DNA of 40,662 nt from Cytophagaceae bacterium. GTDB lineage: Bacteria > Bacteroidota > Bacteroidia > Flavobacteriales > Flavobacteriaceae. Every line of letters begins with the position of its first letter. Positions within the stretch are counted from its first letter, which is position 1. Positions 1,519 through 40,010 of this stretch are shown in pieces. The stretch is taken from positions 1 through 40,662 of the forward strand of contig PAUP01000041.1 of NCBI GenBank assembly GCA_002712765.1, given 5' to 3'. The notes beneath the pieces are model-generated. The model was given only the letters and a program-made list of their open reading frames with translations, was not told the origin of the DNA and made no database searches. A program made the translations under genes and the position numbers.

Positions 1519-2247
1519 ATGTTGTATTATCTCATTATTGGGCTTCAGATTTACTGTGCCTACCACATTTATAAAACACAAAATCAACCTTACTGGTATT
1601 TAGTAATTTTATTGGTCCCGTTGTTGGGCTCTGCGATTTATCTCTTTACCCAAACCACCAAAAGATCAACCGTTACTACCCTTACCAAAGAACTCCAAGA
1701 CAGTTTTCAGCCTTCTAAAAAGATTGAAAAACTCGAAAAGCAGCTCGCCTTTGCCGATACATTTCAAAATCGCATTTTACTGGCCGAGGGCTATCTTTCT
1801 GTTAACGCTTTCGCGAAAGCGGAACAAGCCTACCTCCATGCCTTAGAAGGAAGTCATGCCTCCGATTATGACGCACAATGCAAATTGTTATGGTGCTATT
1901 TCAAACAAGATAAATTTGAGAATGCAGTGGCCCTAGGAGAAAAACTCGCCGAGGCTCCCAATTTTGAAAAAAGTCACTCCCAGTTTATTTATGGGTTATC
2001 ATTGGCCAAACTAGATCAACACCAGAAAGCCCTACCGATCCTACAGAAAGTAGATCAGCGTTATTCCAACTACAAAGAACGCTTACAATTGGCCCAGTAT
2101 TACCTCACTCTAGAACGTAAAGAGGATGCCTTGACACTGCTTACCGAGCTATTGACAGAGGCCGCCAATATGACTCCTGCCAATAAGAAGAAATACAGAG
2201 CTACTATGGCCGAAGCTGAGCGTTTACAAGCCTCTTTAAGCGCTTAA
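1519..2247 (+). CDS. Membrane-anchored tetratricopeptide-repeat protein
   Basis: A 242-residue protein. Two hydrophobic segments at about residues 2-18 and 27-45 (ending YLFTQ) form a hairpin like the PLDc_N-type membrane anchor. From about 60 on there are helical TPR-like repeats (for example AKAEQAYLHALEG, then KFENAVALGEKLAEAP, and QHQKALPILQKVDQ). TPR domains hold partner proteins, so this is probably an inner-membrane scaffold with its TPR in the cytoplasm; the partner is unknown. Residues AFAKA near 97-101 are encoded by the 14-bp palindrome described separately. The UDG-family gene starts 2 bp after the stop, so the two are probably co-transcribed. Confidence 0.75.
   Translation: MLYYLIIGLQIYCAYHIYKTQNQPYWYLVILLVPLLGSAIYLFTQTTKRSTVTTLTKELQDSFQPSKKIEKLEKQLAFADTFQNRILLAEGYLSVNAFAKAEQAYLHALEGSHASDYDAQCKLLWCYFKQDKFENAVALGEKLAEAPNFEKSHSQFIYGLSLAKLDQHQKALPILQKVDQRYSNYKERLQLAQYYLTLERKEDALTLLTELLTEAANMTPANKKKYRATMAEAERLQASLSA
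1807..1820. repeat. 14-bp palindrome copy 1 (GCTTTCGCGAAAGC)
   Basis: Perfect palindrome inside the TPR gene, read as Ala-Phe-Ala-Lys-Ala. It is followed by GGA, like copies 2 and 8. Confidence 0.95.
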
Positions 2248-2249
2248 AT

Positions 2250-2909
2250 ATGGGGCGGTTTCTCCATAAACATCCTTTTCCTCCCTTTAATCTAGAGGCA
2301 GCCCAAAAATTAATTGTAGGTACCCTACCTCCTCCTCGATTTACAACGGGCAATTTAAAACCGGGCGATGTCAATTTTTCGTATGGCAGTATAGACGGAC
2401 AACTCTGGCCTATATTAGAACGCATTTTTGACTTAGGACTTAGCTATGAAAATACCCAACAGGCCATAAAAGAACGACAAGCCTTTTTGATCTCACGTAA
2501 CATTGGAGTATGTGATATTGTCAATGCGGCCTACCGCGATAAAATAGATGCCTCCGATATTGGTTTGCTCGAGGTGAGCTTGCGACCTATGTTTGAGATT
2601 TTGTCAAATTTTCCTCAAATTGACACCTTGCTCTTCACGGGAGGCAATAGCAAAAATGGTCCAGAGTATTTTTTTCGCAAACTATGCCGAGAATATGATG
2701 TTAGCCTAAAGGTCGTCTCACCTAAGGTACCACGTATACATCAGCTAAATTGGGCGTCTCGTGAGATCACTACCGTATCTTTAACCGCCCCTTCTGGAGC
2801 AGCCAATCGCGCTGTAGGAAGTATGAAAGACTACAAGGCGTTTAAGACCGAAAACCCAGCCTTTAACACCATAGACTATCGGGTCATGCAATATGCCCCT
2901 TACTTTTAA
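2250..2909 (+). CDS. Uracil-DNA glycosylase-family protein
   Basis: A 219-residue protein that resembles the UDG superfamily. Residues 22-28 (IVGTLPPP) occupy the place of the catalytic GxxPG-type motif after the first strand. Then come GQLWPIL near 50, a ..GVCDIV.. strand near 87-95, LLFTGGNSKNG near 127 and the C-terminal SPxxxxxHQLNW segment with a histidine in the position of motif 3. UDG enzymes remove uracil or other deaminated bases from DNA. The acidic or Asn residue that defines each known subclass is not clear from reading alone, so substrate is open (uracil or hypoxanthine are the plausible choices). It begins 2 bp after the TPR gene and ends 12 bp from a convergent gene, with no obvious terminator between. 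Confidence 0.65.
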   Translation: MGRFLHKHPFPPFNLEAAQKLIVGTLPPPRFTTGNLKPGDVNFSYGSIDGQLWPILERIFDLGLSYENTQQAIKERQAFLISRNIGVCDIVNAAYRDKIDASDIGLLEVSLRPMFEILSNFPQIDTLLFTGGNSKNGPEYFFRKLCREYDVSLKVVSPKVPRIHQLNWASREITTVSLTAPSGAANRAVGSMKDYKAFKTENPAFNTIDYRVMQYAPYF

Positions 2910-2921
2910 ATGAGATAGATT

Positions 2922-6209: not shown

Positions 6210-6551
6210 GCGAAAAAATATAAGAGTATCTCACAAATATATTAAATCAGATAATATGACATAATAATGTGGAACCGAAATGGCTATTGCTTCAAATTCA
6301 AGACCTTATTTGAAACACTGTATTCCAAATTATACATGCATTTTATCGATTTTAACTTTTGACGGATTATTTTTTTGTTATATTTAACACGTTAAAGGCA
6401 ATAAAATCCTACCCACATATTGCTTTAAACATAGCCCAACTCCCCCTACAGGCTATAAAAACTACATGTTTAATTGAATTATCCACTATGATTTTTGATC
6501 ATGGTGCTAATTATATTCGTTTAACTTAATTATTATTTAAATCAACCAAGT
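6210..6551. other. Divergent intergenic region with promoter signals and two inverted repeats
   Basis: This AT-rich 342-bp gap separates two divergent genes for surface proteins. It holds TATATTTG on the minus strand (6234-6241), an imperfect inverted repeat at 6391-6430 (GTTAAAGGCAATA with TATTGCTTTAAAC, one bulged base) and a second at 6484-6506 (CACTATGAT with ATCATGGTG around TTTTG). No reading frame of note is present. Confidence 0.6.
6234..6241 (-). promoter_or_regulatory. Bacteroidetes-type -7 element for the FG-GAP lipoprotein
   Basis: On the minus strand the sequence is TATATTTG, an exact TAnnTTTG match, 24 bp upstream of the start codon. I find no TTG at the proper -33 distance, so this is a partial promoter match only. 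Confidence 0.4.
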
Positions 6552-8789: not shown

Positions 8790-8810
8790 TTTTTTTCAAT
8801 TATTCTTGGA

Positions 8811-8847: not shown

Positions 8848-8867
8848 GCAATTTGTATCTTTCCCAA

Positions 8868-10631
8868 ATGAAATCATTCTTTCCAACTATTCTTGTCCTA
8901 TCTGTTTTAGCTACAAGTTTGTATTCTTGCTCAGAGCGCGGTGACAATCCAGACGATATCGACTTTACCACAACTTTTGAAAAAAGTAACGGCACTCAAA
9001 CCCCAACCTATACCGAAGTCATTGAATTCTATAAAGCCCTTGATAAAGCATATACCTCCATCCAGACCTATGAGGTAGGTAGCACCGATAGTGGAGAGCC
9101 ACTTACCCTGATCACCTTTAATCCTAATCGCAGCTTTGACAGCGAGTTTGCCGATAATACCGATGTAAGACGAATACTCATAAACAATGGGATTCACCCA
9201 GGCGAATCTGACGGGATAGATGCCTCCATGTTGCTTTTTAGAGATTTGGCACAAGGCAAAATTAAAGCGCCAGAACACACCTGGATCTCTGCCATTGCTG
9301 TGTATAATATTGGCGGTGCACTTCATAGAAATTCGACCTCACGCACCAATCAAAATGGTCCTGAAGCCTATGGTTTTAGAGGTAATGCCCGCAACTATGA
9401 TCTCAATCGAGATTTTGTGAAACAGGATACCAAAAATGCCAAGGCCTTTGCAGAAATCTTTCACATGATAAAGCCCGATGTATTTATCGATAATCACGTG
9501 AGTAACGGCGCCGATTATCAATACACTCTAACCCATCTCTTTACCCAGCACAACAAATTAGGCGGTGTATTAGGTCAATTTTTACATCAGGATTTTCAAC
9601 CATTGATAGAACAAGATCTCAAAGCCAATGCTTGGGAGATTTCACCTTATGTCAATGTTTTTAATCGCACACCAGAAACTGGCTTTAGTCAATTCATGGA
9701 CTATCCGCGCTATTCTACAGGGTATACAGCCATGTGGAATACCCTTGGGCTAATGGTCGAAACCCATATGCTAAAACCCTATAAACCACGAGTAGAAGGC
9801 ACCTATCAACTCATGAAAAGTGTGATTGCAGTGACCGATGCCCAGCACGAAAAGATAAAGGCCTTGCGCAATGATGCTTTTAATGCTTTCGCGAAAGCGG
9901 ATACCTACCCCTTACAATTCCGCATAGATAGCACCAAGACCTCAACGCTCTCCTTTTTAGGGTTTGAAGGCGAATATCAAGCCAGTGAGCTTACCGGACA
10001 AATGCGTTTAAAATACGACAGAGATAAGCCCTTTACCAAAGCGGTGACCTATTATGACCACTTTACACCTACAAATGACATAGCCATTCCTAAAGCCTAT
10101 CTAATACCCAGAGGCTATCGCAATATCGCCCTACTTTTAAGAGCCAATGACATTCGCTTTAAGCAACTAAAAAGGGATACCACATTTACCGCAGAGGTCT
10201 ATCACATTGATTCCTATCAAACGCGTCGCAATGCCTATGAAGGTCATTACCCACACTACAACACCAAGGTAAATCGAGATCTAGAAGAAGTTACCATAGC
10301 CAAAGGCGGATACCTTGTCCCTACAGACCAAGACGGCCTGCGCTATTTGTTAGAAACACTAGAACCAGAGGCTGTAGACAGTTTTTTTAATTGGAATTAC
10401 TTTGACACCATCTTACAACAAAAAGAAGGGTTTTCTCCTTATGTGTGGGAAGATAAGGCCGCCCAGTTTTTGGAAGATCACCAAGAAATACGTCGGTCAT
10501 TTGAAGCCAAGAAACAGAGCGATCCTAATTTTGCGAACAATTGGTACGCCCAATTAGATTGGATACACAAACAGAGTCCAAATTACGAAAGCGCACATTT
10601 ACGCTACCCTATCGTTAGGATGCCGCGTTAA
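8868..10631 (+). CDS. M14-family zinc carboxypeptidase, lipoprotein
   Basis: With the ATG at 8868 the protein has 587 residues and starts with a lipoprotein signal (SLYSC, lipidated Cys21). An upstream TTG frame at 8853 would fall against the terminator and is rejected. Zinc ligands of the M14 fold are visible: H110 and E113 in NNGIHPGESDG, and H210 in FIDNHVSNG. A substrate Arg lies in NARNYDLNRDF, and the catalytic Glu (about E298) in LMVETHMLKPY. M14 enzymes remove C-terminal residues from peptides or cleave peptidoglycan peptides. The C-terminal 250 residues form an extra domain without motifs I recognise. Probable site: periplasm or outer membrane. AFAKA in the middle is coded by the 14-bp palindrome. 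Its 3' end overlaps the convergent Nudix gene by 33 bp. Confidence 0.87.
   Translation: MKSFFPTILVLSVLATSLYSCSERGDNPDDIDFTTTFEKSNGTQTPTYTEVIEFYKALDKAYTSIQTYEVGSTDSGEPLTLITFNPNRSFDSEFADNTDVRRILINNGIHPGESDGIDASMLLFRDLAQGKIKAPEHTWISAIAVYNIGGALHRNSTSRTNQNGPEAYGFRGNARNYDLNRDFVKQDTKNAKAFAEIFHMIKPDVFIDNHVSNGADYQYTLTHLFTQHNKLGGVLGQFLHQDFQPLIEQDLKANAWEISPYVNVFNRTPETGFSQFMDYPRYSTGYTAMWNTLGLMVETHMLKPYKPRVEGTYQLMKSVIAVTDAQHEKIKALRNDAFNAFAKADTYPLQFRIDSTKTSTLSFLGFEGEYQASELTGQMRLKYDRDKPFTKAVTYYDHFTPTNDIAIPKAYLIPRGYRNIALLLRANDIRFKQLKRDTTFTAEVYHIDSYQTRRNAYEGHYPHYNTKVNRDLEEVTIAKGGYLVPTDQDGLRYLLETLEPEAVDSFFNWNYFDTILQQKEGFSPYVWEDKAAQFLEDHQEIRRSFEAKKQSDPNFANNWYAQLDWIHKQSPNYESAHLRYPIVRMPR
9885..9898. repeat. 14-bp palindrome copy 2
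   Basis: Perfect GCTTTCGCGAAAGC followed by GGA, inside the carboxypeptidase gene and read Ala-Phe-Ala-Lys-Ala. Confidence 0.95.
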
Positions 10632-12351: not shown

Positions 12352-12382
12352 TTGGGTACAGGTATTGAAAAAAGTATTTTTG
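12352..12382 (+). promoter_or_regulatory. Bacteroidetes promoter for the transketolase operon
   Basis: TTG at 12352-12354, then 20 bp, then TATTTTTG at 12375-12382 fits the TTG/TAnnTTTG promoter with good spacing. Transcription would start near 12389, about 14 nt before the ATG at 12403, which supports that start. Confidence 0.65.
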
Positions 12383-12402
12383 CTCTCATATACAAGAATC
12401 AG

Positions 12403-13248
12403 ATGGCAGATATTCAACACTTAGAAAATTTTGTAACGCAGGTTCGCAGAGATATTTTGCGTCAAGTGCATAAAGTAAATTCAGGACATCCCGGCGGATC
12501 TTTAGGATGTGCCGAGTTCTTTGTAGTCTTGTACCAAGAACTTATGGATCGTAAAGAAGGCTTCGATATGGATGGTAAAGGCGAAGATCTCTTCTTTTTA
12601 TCTAACGGACATATTTCTCCGGTCTTTTATAGTGTTTTAGCACGTTCGGGCTATTTTCCTGTAGAAGAGCTCAACACCTTTAGATTGCTAAACTCTAGAC
12701 TTCAAGGCCACCCAACTACACATGAAGGATTACCAGGAGTAAGAATAGCTTCGGGTTCGCTGGGTCAAGGGATCAGTGTTGCTCTGGGTGCTGCCGAGAC
12801 AAAAAAACTCAACAATTGCGATCACCTCATCTATGCCCTAATGGGAGATGGAGAATTGCAGGAAGGCCAAAATTGGGAAGCTATTATGTATGCTGCGGCA
12901 AACCGTATTGACAATATCGTTGTAACGGTAGACTTGAACGGGCAGCAAATCGATGGCAGTACAGACAACGTACTTCCTATGGGTAGTGTCAAATCTAAGT
13001 TTGAAGCCTTTGGGTGGGATGTGCTAGAGATAGAAAAAGGAAATGATATTCAGGCCATTATTGACGGTCTTACAGCCGCCAAATCTCGCACGGGTAATGG
13101 TAAACCCATTTGTGTTTTACTACACACGGTAATGGGTAATGGTGTAGACTTTATGATGCACACACACGCTTGGCATGGTAAAGCACCCAACGACGAGCAA
13201 CTTGCCATAGGTTTAGAACAAAATCCTGAAACCTTAGGCGATTATTAA
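12403..13248 (+). CDS. Transketolase, N-terminal (TPP-binding) subunit
   Basis: This is the N-terminal half of a split transketolase, 281 residues from ATG 12403 ([11 protein letters not shown]). An upstream TTG frame overlaps the promoter and is rejected. Visible motifs are [11 protein letters not shown] near residues 26-36, the [12 protein letters not shown] segment, [14 protein letters not shown], and the thiamine-diphosphate motif [13 protein letters not shown] near 148-160, followed by [13 protein letters not shown]. The active enzyme is a complex with the product of the next gene and moves two-carbon units between sugars in the pentose phosphate pathway. A 56-bp spacer with a 12-bp form of the palindrome separates the halves. 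Confidence 0.94.
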
Positions 13249-13255: not shown

Positions 13256-13267
13256 GCTTTCGCGAAA
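13256..13267. repeat. 12-bp form of the palindrome (GCTTTCGCGAAA)
   Basis: Lies in the 56-bp spacer between the two transketolase genes. Read on the minus strand it is TTTCGCGAAAGCGGA, the same right flank as copies 1, 2 and 8. Confidence 0.8.
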
Positions 13268-13304: not shown

Positions 13305-14258
13305 ATGAAAACATACGAAAATACAGGAAGTAAGGATACACGATCAGGATTTGGAGCTGGTCTGGAGGCCTTAGGAAAAATCAATGAAAACGTGGTTGCC
13401 CTATGCGCCGATTTGACCGGATCTCTAAAAATGGACGCTTTTAAGGAAAATCATCCTGAGCGATTTTTTCAAGTAGGAATTGCCGAAGCCAATATGATGG
13501 GGCTCGCCGCTGGAATGACTATAGGCGGAAAAATTCCATTTACAGGTACCTTTGCCAATTTTTCTACAGGTCGCGTCTATGATCAAATAAGACAAAGCAT
13601 CGCTTATTCTGATAAGAATGTCAAGATATGTGCCTCTCACGCTGGCCTCACCCTTGGTGAAGATGGGGCTACACACCAAATTTTAGAAGATATTGGGCTG
13701 ATGAAAATGCTGCCTGGTATGACGGTAATCAACACTTGTGACTACAATCAAACCAAAGCCGCGACTATGGCTATTGCCAATCATCACGGGCCGGTATATT
13801 TGCGTTTTGGAAGACCAAAAGTGGCTAATTTTACTCCTGAAGATCAGCATTTTGAAATAGGTAAAGCCGTGCATCTGCAAGAAGGAACGGACGTTACTAT
13901 TGTTGCTACAGGTCACTTAGTTTGGGAAGCCTTAGAAGCGGCTAAGACCCTACACAACGATGGGATTAGCGCAGCCGTGATTAATATTCACACCATTAAG
14001 CCATTGGATGCAGCCGCAATACTTGAGTCTGTCAAGACTACGGGCTGTGTGGTCACTGCCGAAGAACACAACTTTTTAGGAGGGCTTGGAGAAAGTGTTG
14101 CAAGAGAGCTTGCCTTAGCTCATCCTGTACCTCAGGAATTTGTCGCTACCCAAGACACCTTTGGCGAAAGCGGTACTCCTGCAGAGCTCATGGAAAAGTA
14201 TGGTTTAAACGCCGAAGCTATCACCAAAGCTGCCAAAAAAGTAATGGCTAGAAAATAA
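13305..14258 (+). CDS. Transketolase, C-terminal subunit
   Basis: A 317-residue partner of the preceding gene, corresponding to the Pyr and C-terminal domains of transketolase. Motifs are [13 protein letters not shown] near the N terminus, [17 protein letters not shown] near 60-76 with the catalytic Glu that activates thiamine diphosphate, [16 protein letters not shown] near 108-122, and the C-terminal domain with [12 protein letters not shown]. The order N-half then C-half in one operon is the usual split-transketolase arrangement in Bacteroidota. ATG 13305 is the first ATG and matches the family start. A hairpin terminator follows at 14292. Confidence 0.94.
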
Positions 14259-19968: not shown

Positions 19969-22900
19969 ATGCAGTCAAAAACCAACAAATACTTAGTTAC
20001 CGCCCTGCTCTTAGGAATTATTTTCCATGGCACAACGATGTTTTTTACTGTAGAAAGGACCTACGATGCCCTTATCCATCTCTTTTTTGCAAATCATTAC
20101 GCAAACAGTTGGTTCGAACCCTGGAATTATAGTTGGTATACAGGATTTACAGTAACAGGGTATCCACCCTTGGTGCATCAGGCCATTGCAGCTTTTTCCT
20201 ATGTTGGCGGTCTAAAGTTTGGGATGTTTACCGTGGCATTAATTGGGGTTGTTCTTTTTATTACGGGTGTTTATCGCTTTACTCAAGTACTTATTCCTAA
20301 CAAAAAAGTGGCTGGTTATGCGGCAATACTCGCCGTTTTTTCTTCATCCTTTGTAGAAACCCTTCACATTTTTGGACAATTGCCAAGTATCATCGGTATT
20401 TCGGTATTGATGCACTGCCTGCCCGAGATTTACCTCTGGGTCAAAACGGCTCACAAAAAACATTTGATCAAAGCTTTAGCGCTTTTGTCTGTCACAGTAA
20501 CATCCCACCACGTCACTCCTATTTTTGGGATGGTATTTTTTATATTTCCGCTTCTAGGTATGGTCATCATGGATGCGGCCAGAGAAGAAGTTGGTAGTTT
20601 TCAAAAGGTGACTTTTATTGCTTTCGCGAAAGCATTAAAAACACATATATTGCGTATTATCGGTTTTGGGGGAAGCGCGTTAGTCCTTATTATTGGTTGT
20701 ATTTTGCCTTATTGGTTGAATACCAAAAACAACCCTATTACACAGGTTCCTATTCCGCATGGATCTCGTGACAACTTTTTAGAAGTACTATCATCGGGGC
20801 TTGTATTTTTTGTAATCCCTTGGGGGCTCTTACTATTTCTACTTCCCTATTTCTTTTACCGTTATTTTAGTAAACGGCTGCTATTTTTTGGCATCTCTTT
20901 TTCGTTATTACTGATTTTGGGGACGGGTGGTACCACCCCTATACCTTTGGCGATTTTGGGTGATAATGCATTTAATATATTGACCCTCGACCGTTTTACA
21001 CTTTGGGCTTCCATTATGGCCTTGCCTGTCTTTGGAGAGTTTTGTTATCGCTTTGTTGAGGGCGATTACAAAAGCTATTTACAGCAAAAATGGGGTGTGA
21101 TGGTGCATCGTTGCGCTGGTGCTTTTTTGGCTTTGCTCTTTATCCTTATGTCTATATTTACTATGACTTTGGGCAAGTTTAGACCTAGCCAACCCGACCC
21201 GATCAAAATGACACCGATCGTCAATTTTCTCAACGAAGACGAACATTATAAGTGGCGGTATTTGCCTTTGGGTTTTGGCGATCAGATGGCATGGCTCTCT
21301 GCACAAACCAAAGCGACTACTGTAGATGGCGACTATCACTCTGCACGACGTCTGCCCGAACTTACTACACGCGCTGTAGAACGACTAGAAAATTCAAAAT
21401 ATCGCGGTATAGAGGGCATTGGGTCATTACAACAATTTCTCACCGTGCCTGAGAAATACCACCTCAAATATGTTTTTTCTAATGACAAGTTCTACGATCC
21501 CTTGCTTTATTTTACAGGTTGGCACCGTTTGAGTCTATTAGAAAATGGAATCATGGTATGGGAAAAAGCGGGTATTGCGCCACTGCCTAGTGTGCTGCCT
21601 AAGGAAGACCTTCCCCTCTACCTCAAATTGATGTGGGGTATCATTCCTTTTGCTACCGTACTGCTATCCTTTCTGATATATCTCAATACACTGTGGCAGC
21701 GATCTTTTATTCGAAAAAATAAACGAGCCATCTATTTTAACTTTAGTGCCCCATACAAAACGGTTTCTACAATAGTTTATAAAGGGTCTGTACTTTGGGC
21801 CGTCCTATTGTTACTTAGCGTTTTTTATGGTGCTTACCGCTTGTATATAGAGAATACAGCACAACTTTCGCCAAAAAATGTATTGACCGCCTACTACGAT
21901 GCGCTAGATTTTAAAGAATTTGAGCGCGCACATTCTTATATCAACCCAAACAGCGGTAAGTCGCTTTCGCAATTTATGCTAGAAATTTCGGTATCTGATG
22001 GTTTGTTGAGTTCTTATGCCAAATTGGACAGTCTGCATATTGATGTTGAGACTACTTCAGACACTACGGCAATTGGAAGGATTAATGCCAGCTGGATTAC
22101 ACCACTTAAGGAAATTGAGACAGGTGATAAGTTATCGCTAGAACGTTTGGATGATAAATGGTTTATAACCCCTAAAGTTACCGATCCCGATATACCGCCA
22201 GACCAATTGCTAATTCAAAGTAGTACCGCCTACTACAATCATGGAAAAAGAACAATTACATCCCAAAAAACATTTCATAAAGATGTGCTCAAACAACCCG
22301 TAGTCGAAATAATATCTGCTAAGCTCGTCGTTATAGACAGCACTTATGCTCTTGTAGGTGAAATTCAAAATGTAGATAACATCCCTGCCGATATTTCTGT
22401 TGCAGGGGCCCTTTACAATAGTAGTGATCAAGAACTAGCTCGCTTTAACGCCAAAGATATTATCAAACACAAGCTCTTACCAAAAGAAACAACTTTGTTT
22501 CGAGTAAACTTTGAAGAAGTTGCGTGGCGCTCAGCTACCGACAAAAAACCAAGTACCTTTGATCCTAAGGCTTTCTCTGCTATCCATCTGGCTGGCATTC
22601 CAGAAAAATTTGAAATTCAGGTAAGTGCCAATGTTGCGACTGAGGAAATATACCCTACTGTGGGCATCTCTCAAATAAGACAGTTAGACAAAGACATTGG
22701 TGGTGCTCTTTTTAATACGAGTATTCATCAGGCAACCATTGCACAGCTACTCATTGGCTATTACAACGAGCAAAAAGACTTATTATGGGTGGAGGCAAAA
22801 TATATAGATGAAAGTGTGCGACAGCAACGCAAGCGTCCTTTTAAAGAACCGCTGTACAAAGATCAATTACCCATAATAATTAGTGATCGTATGGATAACG

Positions 22901-23055: not shown

Positions 23056-24287
23056 TAAAAAACGTATCTCATATCGTCATTACGCTACTCTTTTTTATGG
23101 GAGGCTTGTTTATCTGTGGGTGTACCAATACTTCAAAGCTGAGTCATACCACTTCAAAAAAAGTGACCATTGCTTCTGTAAAAAATAACCGAGTTACCAA
23201 TCAAGGGATAAGAATATCTCTAACTAATGTAGAAGCAGCAATACCGCAGCACACTTTTCTAAGTGTTAGTACAGCTCTTGGGGCTACTATACTCACCCCA
23301 AAACATACTGAAACAGGGGATCATTTTTACATCCCCTCAGAAATTTCCAAAAACGCTGGTATAGTAAACTATAGCCTTATCGTAGATGGTGAACTACTCG
23401 AAAAAGACAGTTTTTTGCTACGGCCAGAAGTATCTCAATTGGCAACGGTAGAGACCTACGCTGGCCCGAGAAGTATTATGGCCACTACTAGAGATTATTC
23501 GATGTTGGTGAGTATCCCCACAGACACCTATGACAACCTCCTTCCCGATGACACCTCAATAAAGCTGTATTCCCAATTTAAAAACACCATTACTAAAAGT
23601 GATAAAAAGTTACGATTGGGGTTTGCTTGGCAACGCATCCCAGCACCACTTGAAACAGGCCGAATAAGCACTGCTAGCACCATTAAAAATATCGCCTCTC
23701 AAGAGCTAGCCATTGATGTGTTTCCAGATCTGGCGCAAGATTTTTCGATTGCCGTTTCTAGAAATCACACCTATGCCGATGGCAACCAAATTTGCACCTT
23801 TTCTACCTCCCAGATTAAAGACCAATACAACAATATTGTACCTGATGGTACTCTGGTCACTTTTTTTGTAAACGATGATCATGAGCGCTACTGGCAATTT
23901 ACGGCAACTACTGTTAATGGTTATGCTTTCGCGAAAGCGTTACATCCAGAAATACCGTCTACTTGGACAGTACAGGCCACTATGATGGGGATTGCCAAAA
24001 GCCAACAAACCGACATCACTTTTGACGCTATTCTAGACATGCTACCAGTGACCATAGAGGAAAATAAAATTATGGTGGGGCCACTTCACAGTTATATGGG
24101 GCAACTCGTACAAGATGGAGTAAGAGTTGATCTTATTTTAGGGGATGTGGTAAATACTGCCTTGACCAAAAATGGAATGGCAACCTTTGAATTGGAAGGG
24201 CAAGCCAAGCGACAAAAACCATATCAAATTGAAGTCAAAACTCTAGGACTAATACAAAGCATTACCGTTCCTTTAAATGAAAAGTAA
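23052..24287 (+). CDS. Lipoprotein of unknown function
   Basis: A 411-residue protein whose signal peptide ends in FICGC, with the lipidated Cys at about 24. The rest looks all-beta; I see two or three immunoglobulin-like modules (for example NRVTNQGIRISLTNVEA and GTLVTFFVND) and no enzyme motif. It starts inside the stop of the membrane protein gene (ATGA overlap) and ends 11 bp inside the GH5-like gene, so the three products are made in step and probably act together in the periplasm. The 14-bp palindrome encodes AFAKA near residue 293. I do not recognise the family. Confidence 0.75.
   Translation: MIKNVSHIVITLLFFMGGLFICGCTNTSKLSHTTSKKVTIASVKNNRVTNQGIRISLTNVEAAIPQHTFLSVSTALGATILTPKHTETGDHFYIPSEISKNAGIVNYSLIVDGELLEKDSFLLRPEVSQLATVETYAGPRSIMATTRDYSMLVSIPTDTYDNLLPDDTSIKLYSQFKNTITKSDKKLRLGFAWQRIPAPLETGRISTASTIKNIASQELAIDVFPDLAQDFSIAVSRNHTYADGNQICTFSTSQIKDQYNNIVPDGTLVTFFVNDDHERYWQFTATTVNGYAFAKALHPEIPSTWTVQATMMGIAKSQQTDITFDAILDMLPVTIEENKIMVGPLHSYMGQLVQDGVRVDLILGDVVNTALTKNGMATFELEGQAKRQKPYQIEVKTLGLIQSITVPLNEK
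23925..23938. repeat. 14-bp palindrome copy 5
   Basis: Perfect GCTTTCGCGAAAGC in the lipoprotein gene, read Ala-Phe-Ala-Lys-Ala. Confidence 0.95.
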
Positions 24288-25794: not shown

Positions 25795-26993
25795 GCCGAA
25801 ATGGCGTATTTGGTTTTGAGATCGACGGTGTTGTTGGTAAATACATCCATATACATTTGTGCGATTTTGCTCATGGGGAAAGCTGTAGCAGCTGCATAAT
25901 TGGCCTTTGCAAGACTATTTCTGTAGGCCTGATTGACCACCAGTGCCGAGATGGCTTCGGCAAGGCTCTCACTGTTTTCTGGTTCAAAGAATTCGCCTCT
26001 ATACCCCTCTTCTCTAACCAATATGCTAAGATCTCCCAAATCTGGCATCACTACAGCTTTCCCATAACTACCCGCCTGATGAAGCACACCAGAGCTTCCC
26101 GTAGTCGAGGTATAAGGAAATACAACCATCGCACTTTCAGAAAAGAGTCTAGGCACATCTTCTTCGGCTACGTATCCTGTAAAGGTAATATCTGCTAAGT
26201 GGCTATACTTCTCTTTGACCGATGCCAAATAACCCAAGGTATTCGGGTTATCGGTACCTGCGATAACCACCTCGAGGGGTTGCCCCGTCTTAACTCTGGC
26301 TTTTTCTACCGCCTCGATAAGTACTTCTACTTTTTTGTAAGTTCCAAATTTACCAAAGGTCATTATCTTTAAAGGACCATCTGCTGGGATATAAGAAGGC
26401 TCTTGAGGTATTTCAAAAGTACCATGCGGAATAAGCACACAATTAGAAGCTTTGTACTTTTGCTCTAAAATATCCACATATTTACTTATGGTTAAAGCTA
26501 CGGGGTCTGCTTTTAAAACCACTCTTGGGAGCATCTCGCCAATAAAATTATAGGCTTTCTTTTTTAGCACATTTTTGGTAAAACCAGCGCTGTCCAAGTC
26601 TACGGTTTCCATAATATTGTGTAGTAAGACGGTAGTCTTTACTTTCATACACTTTGAAAGCCACGGAGAAAACAACCCCAGGGCCGCTGCTGCTTTGTTG
26701 TCGCCAAATTTCATAAACTGCAAATTGTACAAAATGGCATCGGGCTTTGTTTGCCTTACAGCCCTAGCTATAGAAAAAAGGTTGAACATACTATTAAATG
26801 TCCAGCATTGCTTAACCGTTATAGCGCAACCAGCCTCTTCAAAAGAAATAGCTGCTTGGCTTGGAGCGATGTCTGTAAGTAAGATCAATTCTGACACTTT
26901 CTGATGCCTACGAAATTGCTTGACCAAGTGGTAGGCATATTCATTAAGCGTTACTTTACTAGGGGGGTATGCGGTGACAATTGCGAGTTTCAT
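25791..26993 (-). CDS. GT4-family glycosyltransferase
   Basis: A 400-residue GT-B enzyme. The N-terminal domain begins MKLAIVTAYPPSKVTLNEYA. The C-terminal nucleotide-sugar domain has IMTFGKFGTYKKVEVLIEA near 212-230, LADITFTGYVAEEDVPRLF near 276-294, and FPYTSTTGSSGVLHQAGSYG near 303-322, where the usual E-x7-E motif is altered (Gly-Ser-Ser-Gly in place of the first Glu region). It lacks the N-terminal DUF3492 of PelF. It would transfer sugars in the cytoplasm to build a surface polymer. It lies on the minus strand with the STAS-like gene (35 bp) and flippase upstream, so these probably form one unit. Confidence 0.85.
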   Translation of the reverse strand: MKLAIVTAYPPSKVTLNEYAYHLVKQFRRHQKVSELILLTDIAPSQAAISFEEAGCAITVKQCWTFNSMFNLFSIARAVRQTKPDAILYNLQFMKFGDNKAAAALGLFSPWLSKCMKVKTTVLLHNIMETVDLDSAGFTKNVLKKKAYNFIGEMLPRVVLKADPVALTISKYVDILEQKYKASNCVLIPHGTFEIPQEPSYIPADGPLKIMTFGKFGTYKKVEVLIEAVEKARVKTGQPLEVVIAGTDNPNTLGYLASVKEKYSHLADITFTGYVAEEDVPRLFSESAMVVFPYTSTTGSSGVLHQAGSYGKAVVMPDLGDLSILVREEGYRGEFFEPENSESLAEAISALVVNQAYRNSLAKANYAAATAFPMSKIAQMYMDVFTNNTVDLKTKYAISA

Positions 26994-27395: not shown

Positions 27396-27409
27396 GCTTT
27401 CGCGAAAGC
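27396..27409. repeat. 14-bp palindrome copy 6 (intergenic)
   Basis: The only perfect copy outside a gene. It lies in the 128-bp gap between flippase and STAS-like gene, next to CAAATTTG (27381-27388), a 7/8 match to the -7 element. Confidence 0.95.
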
Positions 27410-27453: not shown

Positions 27454-28719
27454 TCATCTTTCGATAAAACATTTTTTTGAAGCAGGTAACGACCATCTAA
27501 AATAGATGAGCTGAGCTATTAAGAGCCCACCCATAGCGATAACTTGAGCAAGCACCACTTCGAATAAACTATTGTGAAAGCCTGTTATTAATACCATCTG
27601 CAGAACTCCAAAAATCGCTGTGATCACAATGGGTTTGAATTGATCTAAGGACAAAAAGTAATAAGCAAAAACATTGGCCAAAGCAAAAAATGAAGTAGCC
27701 AGCGCATACCAGCCCAGTAGAGGTGCTATAGCGAGGTAGTCTGACCCAAACAACAGTTGTACTGATAGCGTTGGGCATAAAAAAGTAAAAAGCACTATGA
27801 CCATAGTAAGTATCCCTATATATGTAAGATATTTCATCAATACTGGTACTGCATTATGCCCTTGTTTTCTAAGCTTGACTACCGTAGGTAGCAATAGCAT
27901 AACAAACATCCAGGTTACAAAATACACCACACGACCTATTAATGCTAATGAGGCATAAAGTCCAGCTTTGTACGACGGGAAATAGTATTTGACCAAAAGA
28001 ATATCGCTGTTATTACAAATAATTTGAGTGAGTTCGTAAGATGCTGTGAGCAAAAAAAATTGCAGCACTCTCTTGGTCTCGGCTGTTGTTAGAACAGTTT
28101 TGACAGGAACTTTTGTCCTAAATTTTCTAAAGGGAAACACACCAGCTATAAATGAAATAGCTATTGCACTTGAAACTATTATAGATGAGTTGACATCAAA
28201 CAGTACTAATAGTCCAAAGGTCAATCCTAACCTACAGATCATCTCAAATTGATAGGTAAGGGATAAGGAAACAAACGCTTTTCGCCCTTGCAAATTACCA
28301 CGGTTAGTACTCATTACAAAATACACCGGTATTGCCATTCCAAATATGGTAAACATGGCTGCTGTATCGGTTTGAAACACCAGCTGTAACTCTTTGGCAA
28401 AAACTACGATAGCACTTCCCAATACCATCCCACAAACTGTAGCCTTTTTATAGGCCTTTTTAATAAAGATAGCTTGTTGTGATGGCTCGTATTCGGTGAT
28501 AAATTTGGCCACTGCGAGTTGAAAAGTCATGGCTATAAAAGACAGTACCAACATCAGGGTAATCAATATAGCTGCATCGGCAAAGGCCTTAGGTCCTAAT
28601 ATTCTGCCCAAACCCAAATTATAGAAGTAGTTTCCTGCATTTACAATGAGGGCACTACCCATAAATATTTGCTCTGAAGTTAGCCTGAATTGACGTAATT
28701 GTGATAGGGCAATCATCAT
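27454..28719 (-). CDS. MOP-superfamily polysaccharide flippase (Wzx/PelG-like)
   Basis: A 421-residue integral membrane protein with about 12 predicted helices. It starts with a short cytoplasmic segment and then GSALIVNAGNYFYNLGLGRI, followed by GPKAFADAAILITLMLVLSF, the typical beginning of O-antigen/polysaccharide flippases. The conserved charged turn EYEPSQQAIFIKKAY follows helix 3. It would move lipid-linked saccharides, or help secrete polymer as PelG does. Two adjacent ATGs at 28719 and 28716 can serve as start. A 44-codon ORF ends 3 bp upstream, so the two are probably co-transcribed. Confidence 0.85.
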   Translation of the reverse strand: MMIALSQLRQFRLTSEQIFMGSALIVNAGNYFYNLGLGRILGPKAFADAAILITLMLVLSFIAMTFQLAVAKFITEYEPSQQAIFIKKAYKKATVCGMVLGSAIVVFAKELQLVFQTDTAAMFTIFGMAIPVYFVMSTNRGNLQGRKAFVSLSLTYQFEMICRLGLTFGLLVLFDVNSSIIVSSAIAISFIAGVFPFRKFRTKVPVKTVLTTAETKRVLQFFLLTASYELTQIICNNSDILLVKYYFPSYKAGLYASLALIGRVVYFVTWMFVMLLLPTVVKLRKQGHNAVPVLMKYLTYIGILTMVIVLFTFLCPTLSVQLLFGSDYLAIAPLLGWYALATSFFALANVFAYYFLSLDQFKPIVITAIFGVLQMVLITGFHNSLFEVVLAQVIAMGGLLIAQLIYFRWSLPASKKCFIER

Positions 28720-28857: not shown

Positions 28858-29165
28858 ACTGTTGGATTTTTATTGCGCTACAAATATCATGGCTATTGGA
28901 TGTCACAGGTGGTATAATTCGATGAGTTGAATTTTACTGTAGGTGAATGGTAGGCTATGCTCTTTTAAGGAAAATAAACGCAGCCGTAAAAAATGTAAGC
29001 GTTTCACCCACGTAGTAGGAGCAACTCATACGGTTGTAATCCCGATGACAGGGGTATGCCAAACCCTTCCCTCCTTCAATCGACCAAAAGTGTAGACGAA
29101 CTGCAACTATCCTCAGATTGAATCTGCTTACCCTCCACCTAACTTGCACTTGTAAAATAACAAGG
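28858..29165. other. Divergent intergenic region before the TPR-barrel gene
   Basis: 308 bp with no convincing gene. It holds a perfect inverted repeat CAGATT-G-AATCTG at 29114-29126, about 40 bp before the plus-strand start, and GATATTTG (7/8 of the -7 consensus) on the minus strand towards the 44-codon ORF. Confidence 0.5.
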
Positions 29166-31190
29166 ATGAGAACAGCAATAATTACTATAATAATTTTAAT
29201 GAGTGTCACTCTAAAAGCTCAGGATATGTCTTCTGGATTTGCCTTATTGGAAACTGGAAACTACAAGGCCGCTCAATTCTTTTTTGAAAATATCTTAAAA
29301 GATCATCCAGAAAATAAAACAGCCCGACTTTGTTATGGACGCGCCGTAGGTCTTAATGGGAATAGCAAAGAGGCAAAATCTTTATTTACAGCGCTTAAGA
29401 CAGCATATCCCAACGACTTTGAGGTAGGTTTGAATTATGCAGAAGCATTGCTTTGGGATCAAGACTACAGCAGTGCCAAAATGGCCTACCAAGAACTCCT
29501 TGTTCAAGACAGTACGAACTTTTCTGCCTTGCTAGGCTATGCCAATACGTTGTCCAATCTCAAAGAGTACGACTTGGCCATCAACTATGTAACCCGCGCA
29601 CTAAAAGTAAAGCCTGCCAATGCCAATGCCATGACCTCAAAAAAATTCATGTTTTTAGGAAAAGCGTCGCAATTGGCTTCAAAAGAAGATTATGACCCAG
29701 CCATTAAATTATTGCGCTCACTACTACTCACAACCCCCTCTGATCAAGACCTAAAAGCTGCATTGGCAAACATATACATCGCCCAAAAAGACTTCTCAAA
29801 AGCGAGAGAAACCTTTAGCACACTCACAGATAGTCTAAATTCTTTTGTGGGCTTATCACTCGTTGCCCATCTTCAAAAAAACGATAGCCAGGCACTAAAT
29901 TTTGCAGAGAAAGGGCTCGCTTTCGCGAAAGCTGACACGACCCAATACCTCTTGGCACAAGAACGATATATACAAGCCCTAATCTGGAAGGGAAAGTATC
30001 GTCAAGCGCAAAAGGCTATTGCTGCGCTCTCAGAAGTATTTCCAGATAATTCTAGAATTGCCGCGCTAAAAGCTACCCTAGGCATGTATACGGGTAGGTT
30101 TACCAAGAGTATCGCCGTCTATCAATCGATACTCAAACAAGACAGTACTTCTTTTGACGGAAACCTAGGGATTGCCAATGCCTATAGGGCTCAAGGCAAT
30201 CTCAAACTCGCAAAGGCCTACGCCCGTAAAACACTTGTGTTTTACCCCAATCAAAAAGATGCAAAAAGTTTGCTTCAAACGCTAAATAAAGAAATGGCTC
30301 CTGTGATAGAAACCCTGGGAGCATTTACCTCTGACAACGGAGACAATCAAGCCTATAGTTCAGGGTTACGAGCACATATTTCAATTTCAGATCGTTTTAA
30401 ATCGAGTTTCTCGTATCAGTATCGCACTACAGAAAACAAAACGACAAACACCATGGCTTATAACACCTCAGCCAGTCTTGGTGCACAATACCGCCTGGTT
30501 AACAATACTTGGGTTGCTGGCAATCTCGGTTTTATTAAAGCAAATGCAGTAAGTAACGATTATACCGATCTCAATGGATCTTTATTTGTCAAATCCAGAC
30601 CGCTACCCCTACAATATCTCGAGCTGGGTTACAGCCGCAGCTTACAAGATTTTAATGCAGCCCTGGTAGACAAAAAGATCTTTATGAATAATTACACCCT
30701 CAATTACAATATGGGCACCAATATTAACTTGGGATGGTATACAGGGCTAATGCACACCCAACAAACCGATGGTAATACACGTAATTTGCTGTTTAGCTCT
30801 TTGTATTACACCTTTACCAAAAGCCCTGGGCTTAAAGGTGGAATCAATTTTCAATACCTCAGTTTTAAAAACCAAGTCCCTACGCTTTACTTTAGCCCTT
30901 CGCGCTATCGTGCTACAGAAGTTTTTTTGGATCTCACTGGCCAGACAGGATCTTGGTCATACAGTGCCAATGCCGCGGCAGGTCTCCAGATGGTAGAACG
31001 CGAAAAAGCGACCACCCTATTTAGATTAGAGGCCAAAGTACACTGCGCCATCTCTGAGCGCTTTGTATTAGGCGGCTATGGCAAATACAGTAATATTGCC
31101 TCTGCTACTGCTGTTGGCTTTGAATTTATGGAGGTAGGTTTAACCTTGAGGTGGCAGCTAAAGAAAACAGCCTTATTTTCATTAGATTAG
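29166..31190 (+). CDS. TPR protein with C-terminal outer-membrane beta-barrel (YaiO/PgaA/BcsC-like)
   Basis: From the ATG at 29166 (preceded by AAGG) the protein has 674 residues; a TTG frame 48 nt upstream would spoil the signal peptide. A signal peptide (ILMSVTLKAQ) is followed by about ten TPR units at residues 20-375 (for example GNYKAAQFFFENILKDHPEN and YPNDFEVGLNYAEALLWDQD). From about 390 to the end, alternating amphipathic strands with many Tyr/Asn resemble the YaiO-type barrel. The combination of periplasmic TPR plus barrel is the exporter design of BcsC, PgaA and PelB. It probably exports or binds the polymer made by the neighbouring genes. The palindrome encodes AFAKA in a TPR linker. 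No obvious terminator follows. Confidence 0.78.
   Translation: MRTAIITIIILMSVTLKAQDMSSGFALLETGNYKAAQFFFENILKDHPENKTARLCYGRAVGLNGNSKEAKSLFTALKTAYPNDFEVGLNYAEALLWDQDYSSAKMAYQELLVQDSTNFSALLGYANTLSNLKEYDLAINYVTRALKVKPANANAMTSKKFMFLGKASQLASKEDYDPAIKLLRSLLLTTPSDQDLKAALANIYIAQKDFSKARETFSTLTDSLNSFVGLSLVAHLQKNDSQALNFAEKGLAFAKADTTQYLLAQERYIQALIWKGKYRQAQKAIAALSEVFPDNSRIAALKATLGMYTGRFTKSIAVYQSILKQDSTSFDGNLGIANAYRAQGNLKLAKAYARKTLVFYPNQKDAKSLLQTLNKEMAPVIETLGAFTSDNGDNQAYSSGLRAHISISDRFKSSFSYQYRTTENKTTNTMAYNTSASLGAQYRLVNNTWVAGNLGFIKANAVSNDYTDLNGSLFVKSRPLPLQYLELGYSRSLQDFNAALVDKKIFMNNYTLNYNMGTNINLGWYTGLMHTQQTDGNTRNLLFSSLYYTFTKSPGLKGGINFQYLSFKNQVPTLYFSPSRYRATEVFLDLTGQTGSWSYSANAAAGLQMVEREKATTLFRLEAKVHCAISERFVLGGYGKYSNIASATAVGFEFMEVGLTLRWQLKKTALFSLD
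29919..29932. repeat. 14-bp palindrome copy 7
   Basis: Perfect GCTTTCGCGAAAGC in the TPR region of the exporter-like gene, read Ala-Phe-Ala-Lys-Ala. Confidence 0.95.
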
Positions 31191-34606: not shown

Positions 34607-34699
34607 GCCCGATCTCTGGCTCCCCTTAAGACATTTCGATTTTTGCCGTATTCTACCAGATAGGTGGTACTAAAGTATAGACCAATGGGAAGTGCTTGG

Positions 34700-35425: not shown

Positions 35426-35464
35426 AATTTGAGGTCTTTTAAATAAACATTAGCAATTTACGTA

Positions 35465-35782
35465 TTATAAATCACTAATAAAATCTACACACTGCTCAAG
35501 GATCTTTTCAAATTGAGCACGCAACCTGCTATTTCCGTGTTTTAATTCTTCTTCGTAGGCGATAGCGAGTTCATAAGCTTGTTCGAGACTTAATATGCCC
35601 AGTTTGTGTTTGATTTTGTGTACGTCTTCGGCCGCTTTCGCGAAAGCGGAATCACGCATATGACCTTGGTATATCTTGATTTCTTCGGGCAACTCTTCTT
35701 TAACCACTGCGATTAACTTGTCCTGAAATGCAGCATCTCCTCCTGATAATTCGATGATGTAGTTTAAACTTGGTCGTTCCAT
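35465..35782 (-). CDS. Free-standing Hpt phosphotransfer protein
   Basis: A 105-residue four-helix protein. The Hpt signature is VHKIKHKLGIL, with phospho-accepting H55 and the usual basic residues after it, preceded by SGGDAAFQDKLIAVVKEE, the typical first helices. Residues 46-50, just nine before His55, are AFAKA and are encoded by the 14-bp palindrome. Hpt proteins carry phosphate between two receiver domains; since neither kinase in the operon is a hybrid, the donor receiver is probably the response regulator cut by the right window edge, and the acceptor the LytTR regulator. One base separates it from the kinase gene upstream. Confidence 0.9.
   Translation of the reverse strand: MERPSLNYIIELSGGDAAFQDKLIAVVKEELPEEIKIYQGHMRDSAFAKAAEDVHKIKHKLGILSLEQAYELAIAYEEELKHGNSRLRAQFEKILEQCVDFISDL
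35634..35647. repeat. 14-bp palindrome copy 8
   Basis: Perfect GCTTTCGCGAAAGC in the minus-strand Hpt gene. On that strand it too reads Ala-Phe-Ala-Lys-Ala and is followed by GG. Confidence 0.95.
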
Positions 35783-35783
35783 A

Positions 35784-38035: not shown

Positions 38036-38036
38036 A

Positions 38037-40010
38037 TTATTTTTTTAGGGTAAAATAAAACGTAGTTCCTTCACCTGGCGTACTATCAAGCCATATATCA
38101 CCTCCGTGCATTTCGACAATTTTTTTTACGATAGAAAGACCAATCCCGGTAGAGTCTTTGTGTTTATTTAGCGATTGAAATATTTTAAAAACCTTATCGT
38201 GGTACTCCTTCTCAATGCCAATACCATTATCACGAACCCAAAAGGTAAATGTTTGATCATTTTGAGTCCAATCAATTTCGATCAAACCTCGGGCTTTGTC
38301 GCAATAGCGTATCGCATTACTTAATAAATTCTGAAACAATTGCTGAATCTTAACTCGGTCTGCCATTAAAACAGGCATGGGCTTTTTTAGTGTAATCTCG
38401 ATATGATCTGGGCAGTGAAGTAAGGTTTGTATGTCTTCTAGCACTTGGTTGAGATCAACTTCGGATTTTGCTGTAGATTCGCCTAAACTAGAAAAACGCA
38501 AGACATCCGAGATAAGTTGCTCCATTTTTTCTAAAGTAATCTCTATCATAGCTAGATGCTCTAGAGTCTGCGTATCTAGTTGCTCCTGATTGTCGTCTTT
38601 TATCCAATTTACCAAGGCGTTGATACTACGCAGCGGGCTTTTGAGATCGTGAGAAACCACATGAGCATACTCCTCCAATTCATCATTACTCTTCTCCAAT
38701 TTTTTAAGGAGTTGTTCTTTTTGAATTTCTAGCGTTTTAAGATCTGTAATATCCAGATGAATCCCGATAGAACCTACTACTTGCCCATTTATATTATAAT
38801 TAGGAGCACCGCTTATAAGCCAATGTCGCAGTTCTCCTGTCTTGGTACGTCCTGTGACTTCATAAGAATTTGACTCACCTTTTAATCTATTTTGATTCTC
38901 TTGTGACAGCTTCACTCGAGATTCTGGGGTGAGCAGTAGTTCTTTACCCTTTTTTCCAAGGAGCTCTTTCTCGCTATAGCCCGATATGAGTTCAAAGCTT
39001 TGATTGACCATTTGGATCTCATCTTCCGTATTTACCTCGATAAGTCCCAAATTCATATTGGCTATGATTCTACTGTATTTTTCGCGTTCTGCTTCTATGC
39101 TTTCGCGAAATTTTCTACGCACCGTAACATCTCGATATGTCCATAAATGACCCTTATACACGCCGTCTTCCAACATGGGAATAAAGTCTCGCTCTAGTAT
39201 ACGACCGTCTTTTAAGATGAGTTCATCGGCCAGAACCTGTTGTTTTTTTCGCGTAAGCGTATGTATTCTATCTACAAATGCGTTTGGATCTTGAAATAGG
39301 TGTTTACTGTTTTCGGCAGCGTTTTTACAGTTTTGACCAATAAGCTGGTCTGGGGTGGCTTGAATCTCGAAAAAATCACAAAACCTTTGATTGGCTATGA
39401 CAATATTGCGGTCTTCGTCTTCTAAAAGAACACCGCTCTCCAAATTTGAAATGAGCGCAGACAATCTATTCTCTGAATCAATCAGCCTTTGCTCTGCGGC
39501 TTTTTCCTTTGTAATATCTCTTACGATGCCTTGGGCTGCAATAGGCCGGCCCTCTTCGTCATAAATCATACTGGCATTAATATGAACCAGTCTCACATCC
39601 CCATTGGCCACGATAATGTCGACAAAAAAATCTGTAATTGCGCCTTGCTCAAAGAGTACGTTGAATCCTTCGGCCACTTTATCTTGTCCATTGGGATGCA
39701 CAAGGCTCATCAAGTTAATCTCATCGGTTAATGTATAGCCCAAAAGTGTCTCGGCCGCCTCATTCATTTTAAGGACATCACCACTAAGGTTCATCACAAC
39801 ATAGGCATCGACAATGTTTTCAAATACACCCTCGAGCTCTGAGGTGGTTTGTTTTATAAGGCTTTCCAGCTTGGCGTTAGTAACTTTGAGCTCTTGAGAT
39901 TTTAGATAGAGCTCTCTAGATTTGTCTTCTAGAATGCGTTCGGCCTCTTTTCTGGCAGCCTTTTCGCGAGCAAGCGCTCGCATGTACATTTGGATTTGGG
40001 GGTCATTCAT
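38037..40010 (-). CDS. Multi-PAS sensor histidine kinase (HnoK-like partner of H-NOX)
   Basis: A 657-residue cytoplasmic kinase. An N-terminal coiled coil (1-58, rich in Glu/Lys) is followed by three PAS domains (about 60-180, 180-305, 310-430; for example VFENIVDAYVVMNLSGDVL and IIANMNLGLIEVNTEDEI), the HisKA helix with H454 (VVSHDLKSPLRS), then HATPase motifs IQQLFQNLLSNAIRY, DNGIGI and TGIGLSIVKK. No receiver domain is present. The first codons overlap the H-NOX stop by 8 bp, which makes it the probable direct target: H-NOX proteins inhibit their partner kinase when NO binds. A 12-bp palindrome copy lies between PAS2 and PAS3 and here is read in another frame (Phe-Arg-Glu-Ser). Confidence 0.92.
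   Translation of the reverse strand: MNDPQIQMYMRALAREKAARKEAERILEDKSRELYLKSQELKVTNAKLESLIKQTTSELEGVFENIVDAYVVMNLSGDVLKMNEAAETLLGYTLTDEINLMSLVHPNGQDKVAEGFNVLFEQGAITDFFVDIIVANGDVRLVHINASMIYDEEGRPIAAQGIVRDITKEKAAEQRLIDSENRLSALISNLESGVLLEDEDRNIVIANQRFCDFFEIQATPDQLIGQNCKNAAENSKHLFQDPNAFVDRIHTLTRKKQQVLADELILKDGRILERDFIPMLEDGVYKGHLWTYRDVTVRRKFRESIEAEREKYSRIIANMNLGLIEVNTEDEIQMVNQSFELISGYSEKELLGKKGKELLLTPESRVKLSQENQNRLKGESNSYEVTGRTKTGELRHWLISGAPNYNINGQVVGSIGIHLDITDLKTLEIQKEQLLKKLEKSNDELEEYAHVVSHDLKSPLRSINALVNWIKDDNQEQLDTQTLEHLAMIEITLEKMEQLISDVLRFSSLGESTAKSEVDLNQVLEDIQTLLHCPDHIEITLKKPMPVLMADRVKIQQLFQNLLSNAIRYCDKARGLIEIDWTQNDQTFTFWVRDNGIGIEKEYHDKVFKIFQSLNKHKDSTGIGLSIVKKIVEMHGGDIWLDSTPGEGTTFYFTLKK
39099..39110. 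repeat. 12-bp form of the palindrome (GCTTTCGCGAAA)
   Basis: Lies in the PAS kinase gene; here the frame gives Lys-Phe-Arg-Glu-Ser, the only intragenic copy not read as AFAKA, and the last two bases of the palindrome are changed. Confidence 0.7.

Follow-up and report, generated by a model that had tools for sequence, protein, structure and literature searches.

Iterated palindromes and the signal in the window

Dispersed DNA signals of several kinds are known from bacterial chromosomes, and the HIP1-class palindromes are the nearest known kind to the signal described here, a 14-mer palindrome, GCTTTCGCGAAAGC, that recurs along a 40,662-nucleotide (nt) stretch of a Flavobacteriaceae genome (contig PAUP01000041.1 of assembly GCA_002712765.1; the whole stretch is referred to below as the window). 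The uptake signal sequence (USS) of Haemophilus and the DNA uptake sequence (DUS) of Neisseria resemble it in scale, spacing and occurrence within genes; to our knowledge, the known uptake signals mark DNA that is taken up preferentially and are non-palindromic and directional, and the known uptake machines use an outer-membrane secretin. Chi sites, which RecBCD or AddAB recognises, are short, directional and dispersed through the chromosome, and we know of none that is palindromic. The parS and Noc-binding (NBS) sites are palindromes built on TTTC...GAAA, with halves 4 bp apart.

For the HIP class, PMC4390886 gives hundreds of copies per genome, a clade-restricted occurrence, an extension of the palindrome in some genomes, a GC content of at least 75% (50% for one supplementary form) and an unproven role; HIP1 itself is given there as 8 bp long, with 300-2700 copies per Mb. 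The palindrome of the window is likewise iterated and clade-restricted, with hundreds of copies per genome, a vast genome-wide over-representation, an extension in some genomes and a role that is unproven. It differs from HIP1 as described in PMC4390886 in its length (14-22 bp vs 8) and in its density (112-262 copies per Mb, in stretches of nine genomes, vs 300-2700), and from the class in its lower GC content, with G or C at 8 of the 14 positions. Furthermore, the outward strand avoids G in the roughly 25-bp arms that flank it, its hosts are Bacteroidota, whereas those of HIP1 are cyanobacteria, and no methyltransferase of three families is common to all carriers tested.

Among the genomes searched, hundreds of perfect copies are confined to two groups of cultured marine flavobacteria, Dokdonia and Nonlabens, and one further genus. 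Purifying selection acts on the sites as DNA, and almost every copy keeps all 14 bp. The copies occur both in genes and between them, with a spacing more regular than random placement would give. The palindrome is probably a DNA-level signal read by a dimeric protein, and we consider the chances about even that it is the putative binding site of a sequence-specific dimeric DNA-binding protein needed roughly once per 4-9 kb throughout the chromosome.

The genome of the window (2.77 Mb, 78% complete) contains 369 copies, and none of the reversed control. All 17 other Dokdonia genomes searched carry 385-905 copies, three Nonlabens genomes 578-664, and a genome of the third carrier genus, G230 (3,163,819 bp), 408; the labels Dokdonia and Nonlabens for the relatives' genomes are our inferences. 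Beside these congeners, 18 other genomes of the family were searched, with 578 copies in G027, 6 in another and none in 16, and all 23 genomes from other families of the order had no copy. Across 397 family genomes, that of the window included, six contain 369-857 copies, 74 contain 1-19 and 317 contain none, against a single copy of the reversed control in a single genome. A scan of named genomes returned at least 108 motif-bearing stretches; among the matches listed, 45 come from Dokdonia, 29 from Nonlabens (including four of 'Flavobacteria bacterium BBFL7', which we assigned to Nonlabens) and 34 from elsewhere. Only 10 of the 35 copies in the last group have G at the first outward position (+1) on both sides, so chance copies are likely among them. 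The preliminary description of the window proposed a genome-wide DNA signal, and the genome counts, together with the synonymous shuffles and the cross-species conservation described below, strongly support this proposal: the motif is abundant outside the window, in its own genome and in all 17 congeners.

A family-wide system that uses other palindromes elsewhere was considered and rejected, as nothing of comparable length and frequency was found in 40-kb samples of nine further genera of the family with a script that recovers the motif in G016, G281 and G230. The highest-ranking palindromes in these genera are short, namely TTTTAAAA in G031 (29 vs 6.2 expected) and CGTTAACG in G254 (10 vs 0.5 expected). 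Separately, a strong repeat of the ACGGCGACGG type is present in G254 (L309-L310), with 16 copies in 40 kb, and probably belongs to a repeat-rich gene. No description of the site was found in the open literature by title or abstract start, a search whose scope excluded most subscription papers and bioRxiv preprints.

In the window, where genes were called, as in the other genomes, simply as the longest open reading frames (ORFs), all seven perfect copies and both 12-bp forms of the preliminary description were recovered at the positions it had given. They are listed here without a strand of their own, together with one example of the whole unit:

1807..1820, perfect site in ORF 1519-2247 (+ strand, TPR-like), frame 0, Ala-Phe-Ala-Lys-Ala
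9885..9898, perfect site in ORF 8853-10631 (+ strand), frame 0
13256..13267, 12-bp form GCTTTCGCGAAA, intergenic, between transketolase ORFs 12352-13248 and 13305-14258
20620..20633, perfect site in ORF 19969-23055 (+ strand), frame 0
23925..23938, perfect site in ORF 23052-24287 (+ strand), frame 0
27396..27409, perfect site, intergenic, between ORFs 25791-26993 and 27454-28719
29919..29932, perfect site in ORF 29118-31190 (+ strand, TPR repeats), frame 0
35634..35647, perfect site in ORF 35465-35782 (- strand), frame 0
39099..39110, 12-bp form GCTTTCGCGAAA in ORF 38037-40010 (- strand)
1782..1845, whole unit, the palindrome with 25 bp on each side (the arm bias is a pooled property of the seven window sites)

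A tenth match at two mismatches or fewer, absent from the preliminary description, lies at 14158; the ten compare with a mean of 0.16 and a maximum of 1 in 100 dinucleotide shuffles. The GC content of the window, taken as 40% beforehand, was measured as 40.1%. Six of the seven perfect copies are in ORFs, all in frame 0, where they encode Ala-Phe-Ala-Lys-Ala (AFAKA), and one is intergenic. Synonymous-codon shuffling of the 31 called genes yielded 0.03 copies on average and never more than one in 200 shuffles, so that the six observed exceed the codon-matched count. The outward strands of the 14 window arms contain 40 G vs 85 C (p = 7e-5), with 1-5 G at positions 4-25 of any single arm.

Anatomy, conservation and placement of the sites

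The structure of the site was analysed in stretches of nine genomes totalling 1.68 Mb, which cover about 12% or less of any single genome. Flank statistics pool both orientations, and loci picked because they hold the motif, from the named-genome scan, were used for flanks and excluded from density and spacing. Perfect copies in the nine genomes number 326 and one-mismatch copies 58, of which G230 accounts for 17; in 400 kb of the Dokdonia genome G016, 105 perfect copies stand against 12 with one mismatch (both-strand counts halved). From zero to one mismatch, over-representation drops 413-fold in G016, 271-fold in four other Dokdonia, 354-fold in Nonlabens and 94-fold in G230. Half-sites show no enrichment, being barely commoner than the whole palindrome: 213 copies of the 8-mer CGAAAGCG, 236 of GCGAAAGC and 243 of CGCGAAAG were counted vs 210 perfect palindromes (both strands). 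Palindromy without half-site enrichment suggests that a dimer acts on duplex DNA.

The unit is larger than the 14 bp of the preliminary description. It consists of a core of about 22 bp, TTACGCTTTCGCGAAAGCGTAA in Dokdonia, with an arm of about 25 bp on either side. A G occupies position +1 in 0.86-0.87 of flanks and is followed in Dokdonia by T at +2 (0.59) and A at +3 (0.84), and in Nonlabens by A, G or T at +2 and A at +3 and +4. Farther out, both arms avoid G on the outward strand, with C at or above background: positions 4-25 hold 644 G vs 1602 C in Dokdonia, 306 vs 1080 in Nonlabens and 252 vs 396 in G230, and past position 25 the bias is small. The avoidance is also seen at coding sites, read on the gene strand. 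This different treatment of G and C over about 25 bp on both sides suggests that single strands, and not only the duplex, matter in the arms. The GCGGA flank noted earlier is real at some sites; it results from the G that is common at +1 of both flanks, with a G-avoiding arm after it, and does not give the site the orientation that had been proposed, given that the flanks are statistically symmetrical and the two arms nearly independent (left/right correlations of -0.04, 0.21, 0.09 and 0.00 in four groups). One-sided, polar sites were likewise rejected, on the independence of the arms and on G counts at or slightly above binomial variance.

Mirrored arm positions beyond 3 show no excess of pairing, coding sites being slightly below expectation (0.275 vs 0.296, sd 0.007). 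Because of this and of their near independence, the arms are not an extended stem, and an extended hairpin or cruciform was rejected. RNA folds of 66-nt stretches gave z of -1.0 to -1.6 in five of six cases and -1.92 for the stretch from the window. An intrinsic terminator was rejected on the outward positions 3-13, which are mostly A-rich, not T-rich.

Conservation was assessed for a 20-kb stretch of G016 with seven sites (L251), compared with the orthologous DNA of other Dokdonia. The best-covered coding site is L251:10519, where 10 of 11 Dokdonia, the reference included, have an identical 14-mer (a twelfth, G010, is excluded from this count as its stretch ends short of the site), with local protein identities to the reference of 59-96% and codons that vary freely on either side. 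The eleventh, G009, retains AFAKA in the synonymous codons GCT TTT GCA AAA. The full 14-mer of the coding site L251:18072 is present in 8 of 11 Dokdonia, with 13 of 14 bases in G014 and G010 and no site in G013; extra residues follow it in the reference and five others. The site L251:12115, near a C-terminus, is present in 6 of 11 other Dokdonia. The intergenic L251:15626 is identical in G003 and G004, partly aligned in G017 and unaligned elsewhere, and three further sites (1017, 3723 and 5712) are covered only in the near relative G003, where two are identical and one has a single change. In coding DNA, the exact motif encodes AFAKA peptides in 26 of 29 cases in G016 and 18 of 19 in G230.

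A tiny mobile repeat was among the suggestions of the preliminary description, and transposition of such an element (REP-, RPE- or MITE-like) would produce many dispersed copies and leave a gap against empty orthologous sites. At L251:18072, however, the one site closely compared, G004 and G017 with the full site align without gaps to the site-less G230 and G281, and this copy therefore arose by substitution. In addition, the sites inspected have no longer unit in common apart from the palindrome and a composition bias, and their spacing is more even than random, so that we regard a mobile repeat as extremely improbable. A by-product of codon or amino-acid usage could account for the preference for frame 0 (AFAKA), with 84 of 151 clear coding sites, 35 being in frame 1 and 32 in frame 2. 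This reading, to which we give a negligible chance, is refuted by the synonymous shuffles, which abolish the motif in coding DNA (0.30, 0.44 and 0.43 copies vs 50, 40 and 32 observed in G016, G281 and G230), and by the 144 of 326 sites that are intergenic, in DNA that makes up only 7-15% of each sample.

The 151 coding sites lie well inside genes; of the remaining sites, 29 overlap or adjoin gene edges and two are at stretch ends. A local regulator site, another of the earlier suggestions, fits poorly with 112-262 copies per Mb and with about half of the sites inside genes. Only seven gaps are shorter than 800 bp, vs 42.5 +/- 5.6 for random placement within stretches; the variance/mean ratio of per-stretch counts is 0.11-0.67, below 1 in all nine genomes, and for the 67 sites in 230 contiguous kb of G016 the coefficient of variation of the spacing is 0.615 vs 0.98 expected. 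Such evenness suggests that one site serves a few kb and that a second nearby adds little.

Candidate readers and roles

Candidate reader proteins were sought in a panel of 32 genomes, comprising 15 carriers (at least 400 copies), two genomes with 16-19 copies and 15 with none. The palindrome, its spread over the whole chromosome and its even spacing would suit a nucleoid organiser, that is, a dimeric chromosome-binding protein that loops or compacts the DNA from anchor points at these evenly placed sites. For ParB, the sole segregation protein tried, 14 of 15 carriers and 13 of the 17 other genomes have one gene (the remaining carrier, G010, has two), so there is no carrier-wide paralogue. 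Exact canonical parS occurs twice in each of the three Nonlabens and once each in one of 11 Dokdonia and one of the 17 others; none was found in G230, and the ParB/parS test is weaker for Dokdonia and G230. The palindrome is similar in length to parS and NBS and is also built on TTTC...GAAA, although with 2 bp rather than 4 between these elements and with hundreds of copies. The single-copy ParB and the canonical parS retained in Nonlabens thus disfavour, from gene and motif counts, ParB or Noc as the reader, and with them the ParB/parS type of segregation site suggested earlier. A nucleoid organiser would also leave the different treatment of G and C in the arms unexplained, as strand-specific contact would seem superfluous for a simple duplex anchor. 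We consider this role doubtful, although worth retaining.

A self-DNA signal for natural transformation, like USS and DUS, would agree with the even spacing and the little that a second nearby site would add, with the sites inside genes, with a density similar to that of USS and DUS, and with the different flank dialects of Dokdonia and Nonlabens, dialects between related groups being a feature of USS and DUS as well. The absence of the site from the Nonlabens phage P12024S (0 vs about 7.0 expected) points the same way. Against it stand the palindrome and its symmetrical arms, as the uptake signals that we know are non-palindromic. The outer-membrane secretin PF00263 is missing from 10 of 15 carriers, being present in five (Dokdonia G004, G010, G013 and G017, and Nonlabens G281) and in two of the 17 other panel genomes; secretin-based uptake was rejected on this ground. 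Finally, the values given in PMC1939737 for the one-mismatch drop are 92-fold for H. influenzae and 82-fold for N. gonorrhoeae, about 3-5 times smaller than the 271-413-fold drops of Dokdonia and Nonlabens, although no different from that of G230. A transformation signal accordingly appears unlikely to us.

A further reading is a HIP1-type site that an orphan DNA methyltransferase and mismatch repair together maintain. In its favour, the palindrome is highly iterated and its copies can form through substitution, which PMC4390886 proposes for HIP1. The C5 methyltransferases (PF00145) are absent from 9 of 15 carriers and the D12 family (PF02086) from 6 of 15, and the N6/N4 family (PF01555) exceeds the cut-off in just 2 of 15; G005, G008 and G281 have no over-cut-off member of any of the three. 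None of the three families is common to the carriers, unlike the HIP class, in which nearly all carriers have a cognate methyltransferase that recognises an inner sequence, and a methyltransferase of these families was rejected as the reader. The inner TCGCGA is at background outside the motif (51 vs 57.7 expected in Nonlabens, 81 vs 92.8 in Dokdonia), and long G-avoiding arms would be unexpected for a methyltransferase site. We therefore hold a HIP1-type site to be quite unlikely, and a modification or self-recognition system no less so. A role other than transformation, modification, nucleoid organisation or the one considered next is given a small chance.

The role that we put forward, as a tentative guess held with less than even confidence, is a distributed station for repair, recombination or replication. 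A dimer would bind the palindrome on duplex DNA, the bound dimer would open or mark the helix, and a strand-specific factor would then be loaded outward on both arms. In a more specific version, which we deem rather unlikely, the station would be bidirectional, with the helix opening at the dimer-bound palindrome and a recombinase or helicase loaded outward on the G-purged strands. The site would resemble Chi in being dispersed, and the strands entering it are C-poor; it differs from Chi in being symmetrical and long.

Several observations weigh against the proposed dimer-binding site and a distributed station of this kind. RecC was found in none of the 32 genomes, so that a RecBCD-type Chi reading is without its enzyme here, and no reader was found among the families tried (three methyltransferases, ParB, RecC and secretin; no gene-content search was made). 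Site positions turn over, several Dokdonia lacking reference sites or having extra ones. The asymmetry of the arms could be a mutational footprint rather than a product of selection; the strand-loading argument would then fall and a nucleoid organiser would gain. The sites of G230 are a poor fit to one uniform system: they are looser (37 perfect and 17 one-mismatch sites, with only a 94-fold drop), their arms are weaker (252 G vs 396 C), and intergenic enrichment is slight, at 5 of 37. In intergenic arms of Dokdonia and Nonlabens, A and T follow a 3-bp rhythm in the register of the palindrome, but this rhythm is weaker in a larger set and is absent in register at coding sites of frames 1 and 2. 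Low p-values for this rhythm in a stricter intergenic subset were discarded, as selection on in-frame stops alone makes a 3-bp rhythm; a 10-11 bp rhythm of the wrapped-DNA type was not seen in intergenic arms, where the best A/T period is 3.

As a separate observation on G230, all 17 of its one-mismatch sites are in coding DNA (L264-L278), and the pattern looks as if selection had been relaxed or the system partly lost.

Laterally shared DNA, phages and biological meaning

Among the genomes with few copies whose positions were listed, several have them in clusters, four in 11 kb in G118 and five in 22 kb in G127, and a pair of sites 933 bp apart is common to G118, G127, G141 and G254. Over 9.6 kb, the DNA of G254 shares 89-99% identity with that of G127, and about 72% over a further 2.7 kb, and L056, from an Aquimarina metagenome-assembled genome, matches G254 at 99.98% over 8 kb. 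In G254, this island encodes RND efflux proteins, a multicopper oxidase and a heavy-metal ATPase, with four sites in the 20 kb fetched (L319, G254:C1:1154000-1173999; the G127 counterpart is L320, G127:C1:2540000-2559999). Judging from these sequences, it appears to be a copper-resistance-like island shared laterally between genera, which perhaps passed through Dokdonia or Nonlabens, the palindromes being a mark of earlier hosts. The island of G254 also contains a single 1473-aa frame (L319:14693-19114) in which an AcrB-type RND pump is joined to an outer-membrane efflux domain, and a 1481-aa frame (L320:5040-9485) is located in the corresponding part of the G127 island.

In the Nonlabens phage P12024S, the two pieces available (L365 and L366, 35.7 kb in total) lack both the site (P about 0.001) and TCGCGA. 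The site is therefore not simply stamped on all host-replicated DNA, as far as a single phage and a small sample indicate. Several AT-rich viral contigs (L175, L205, L158 and L176) carry the palindrome, some with host-like flanks, and are possibly prophages of the carrier genera. Against phage records, L175 matched Cellulophaga phages weakly (13% of the query, 66%) and a second viral contig had no match; a plasmid search with 5 kb of window DNA also returned no match.

The site can serve as a practical fingerprint: where perfect copies cluster in another genus, as in the shared metal-resistance island, they suggest that the DNA was once in carrier hosts. If bidirectional loading were true, the chromosome of the best-sampled species would have about 900 such stations, and the palindrome would act as a symmetrical analogue of Chi, or mark replication-restart sites distributed along the chromosome, in a few flavobacterial genera and with no known relative. 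The palindrome provides an independent case beside HIP1, an old puzzle without a settled role, and offers more anatomy than HIP1 does, with strand-specific arms, even spacing and few imperfect copies. With no methyltransferase of the three families common to all carriers, the question of what such iterated palindromes do becomes testable in a culturable organism.

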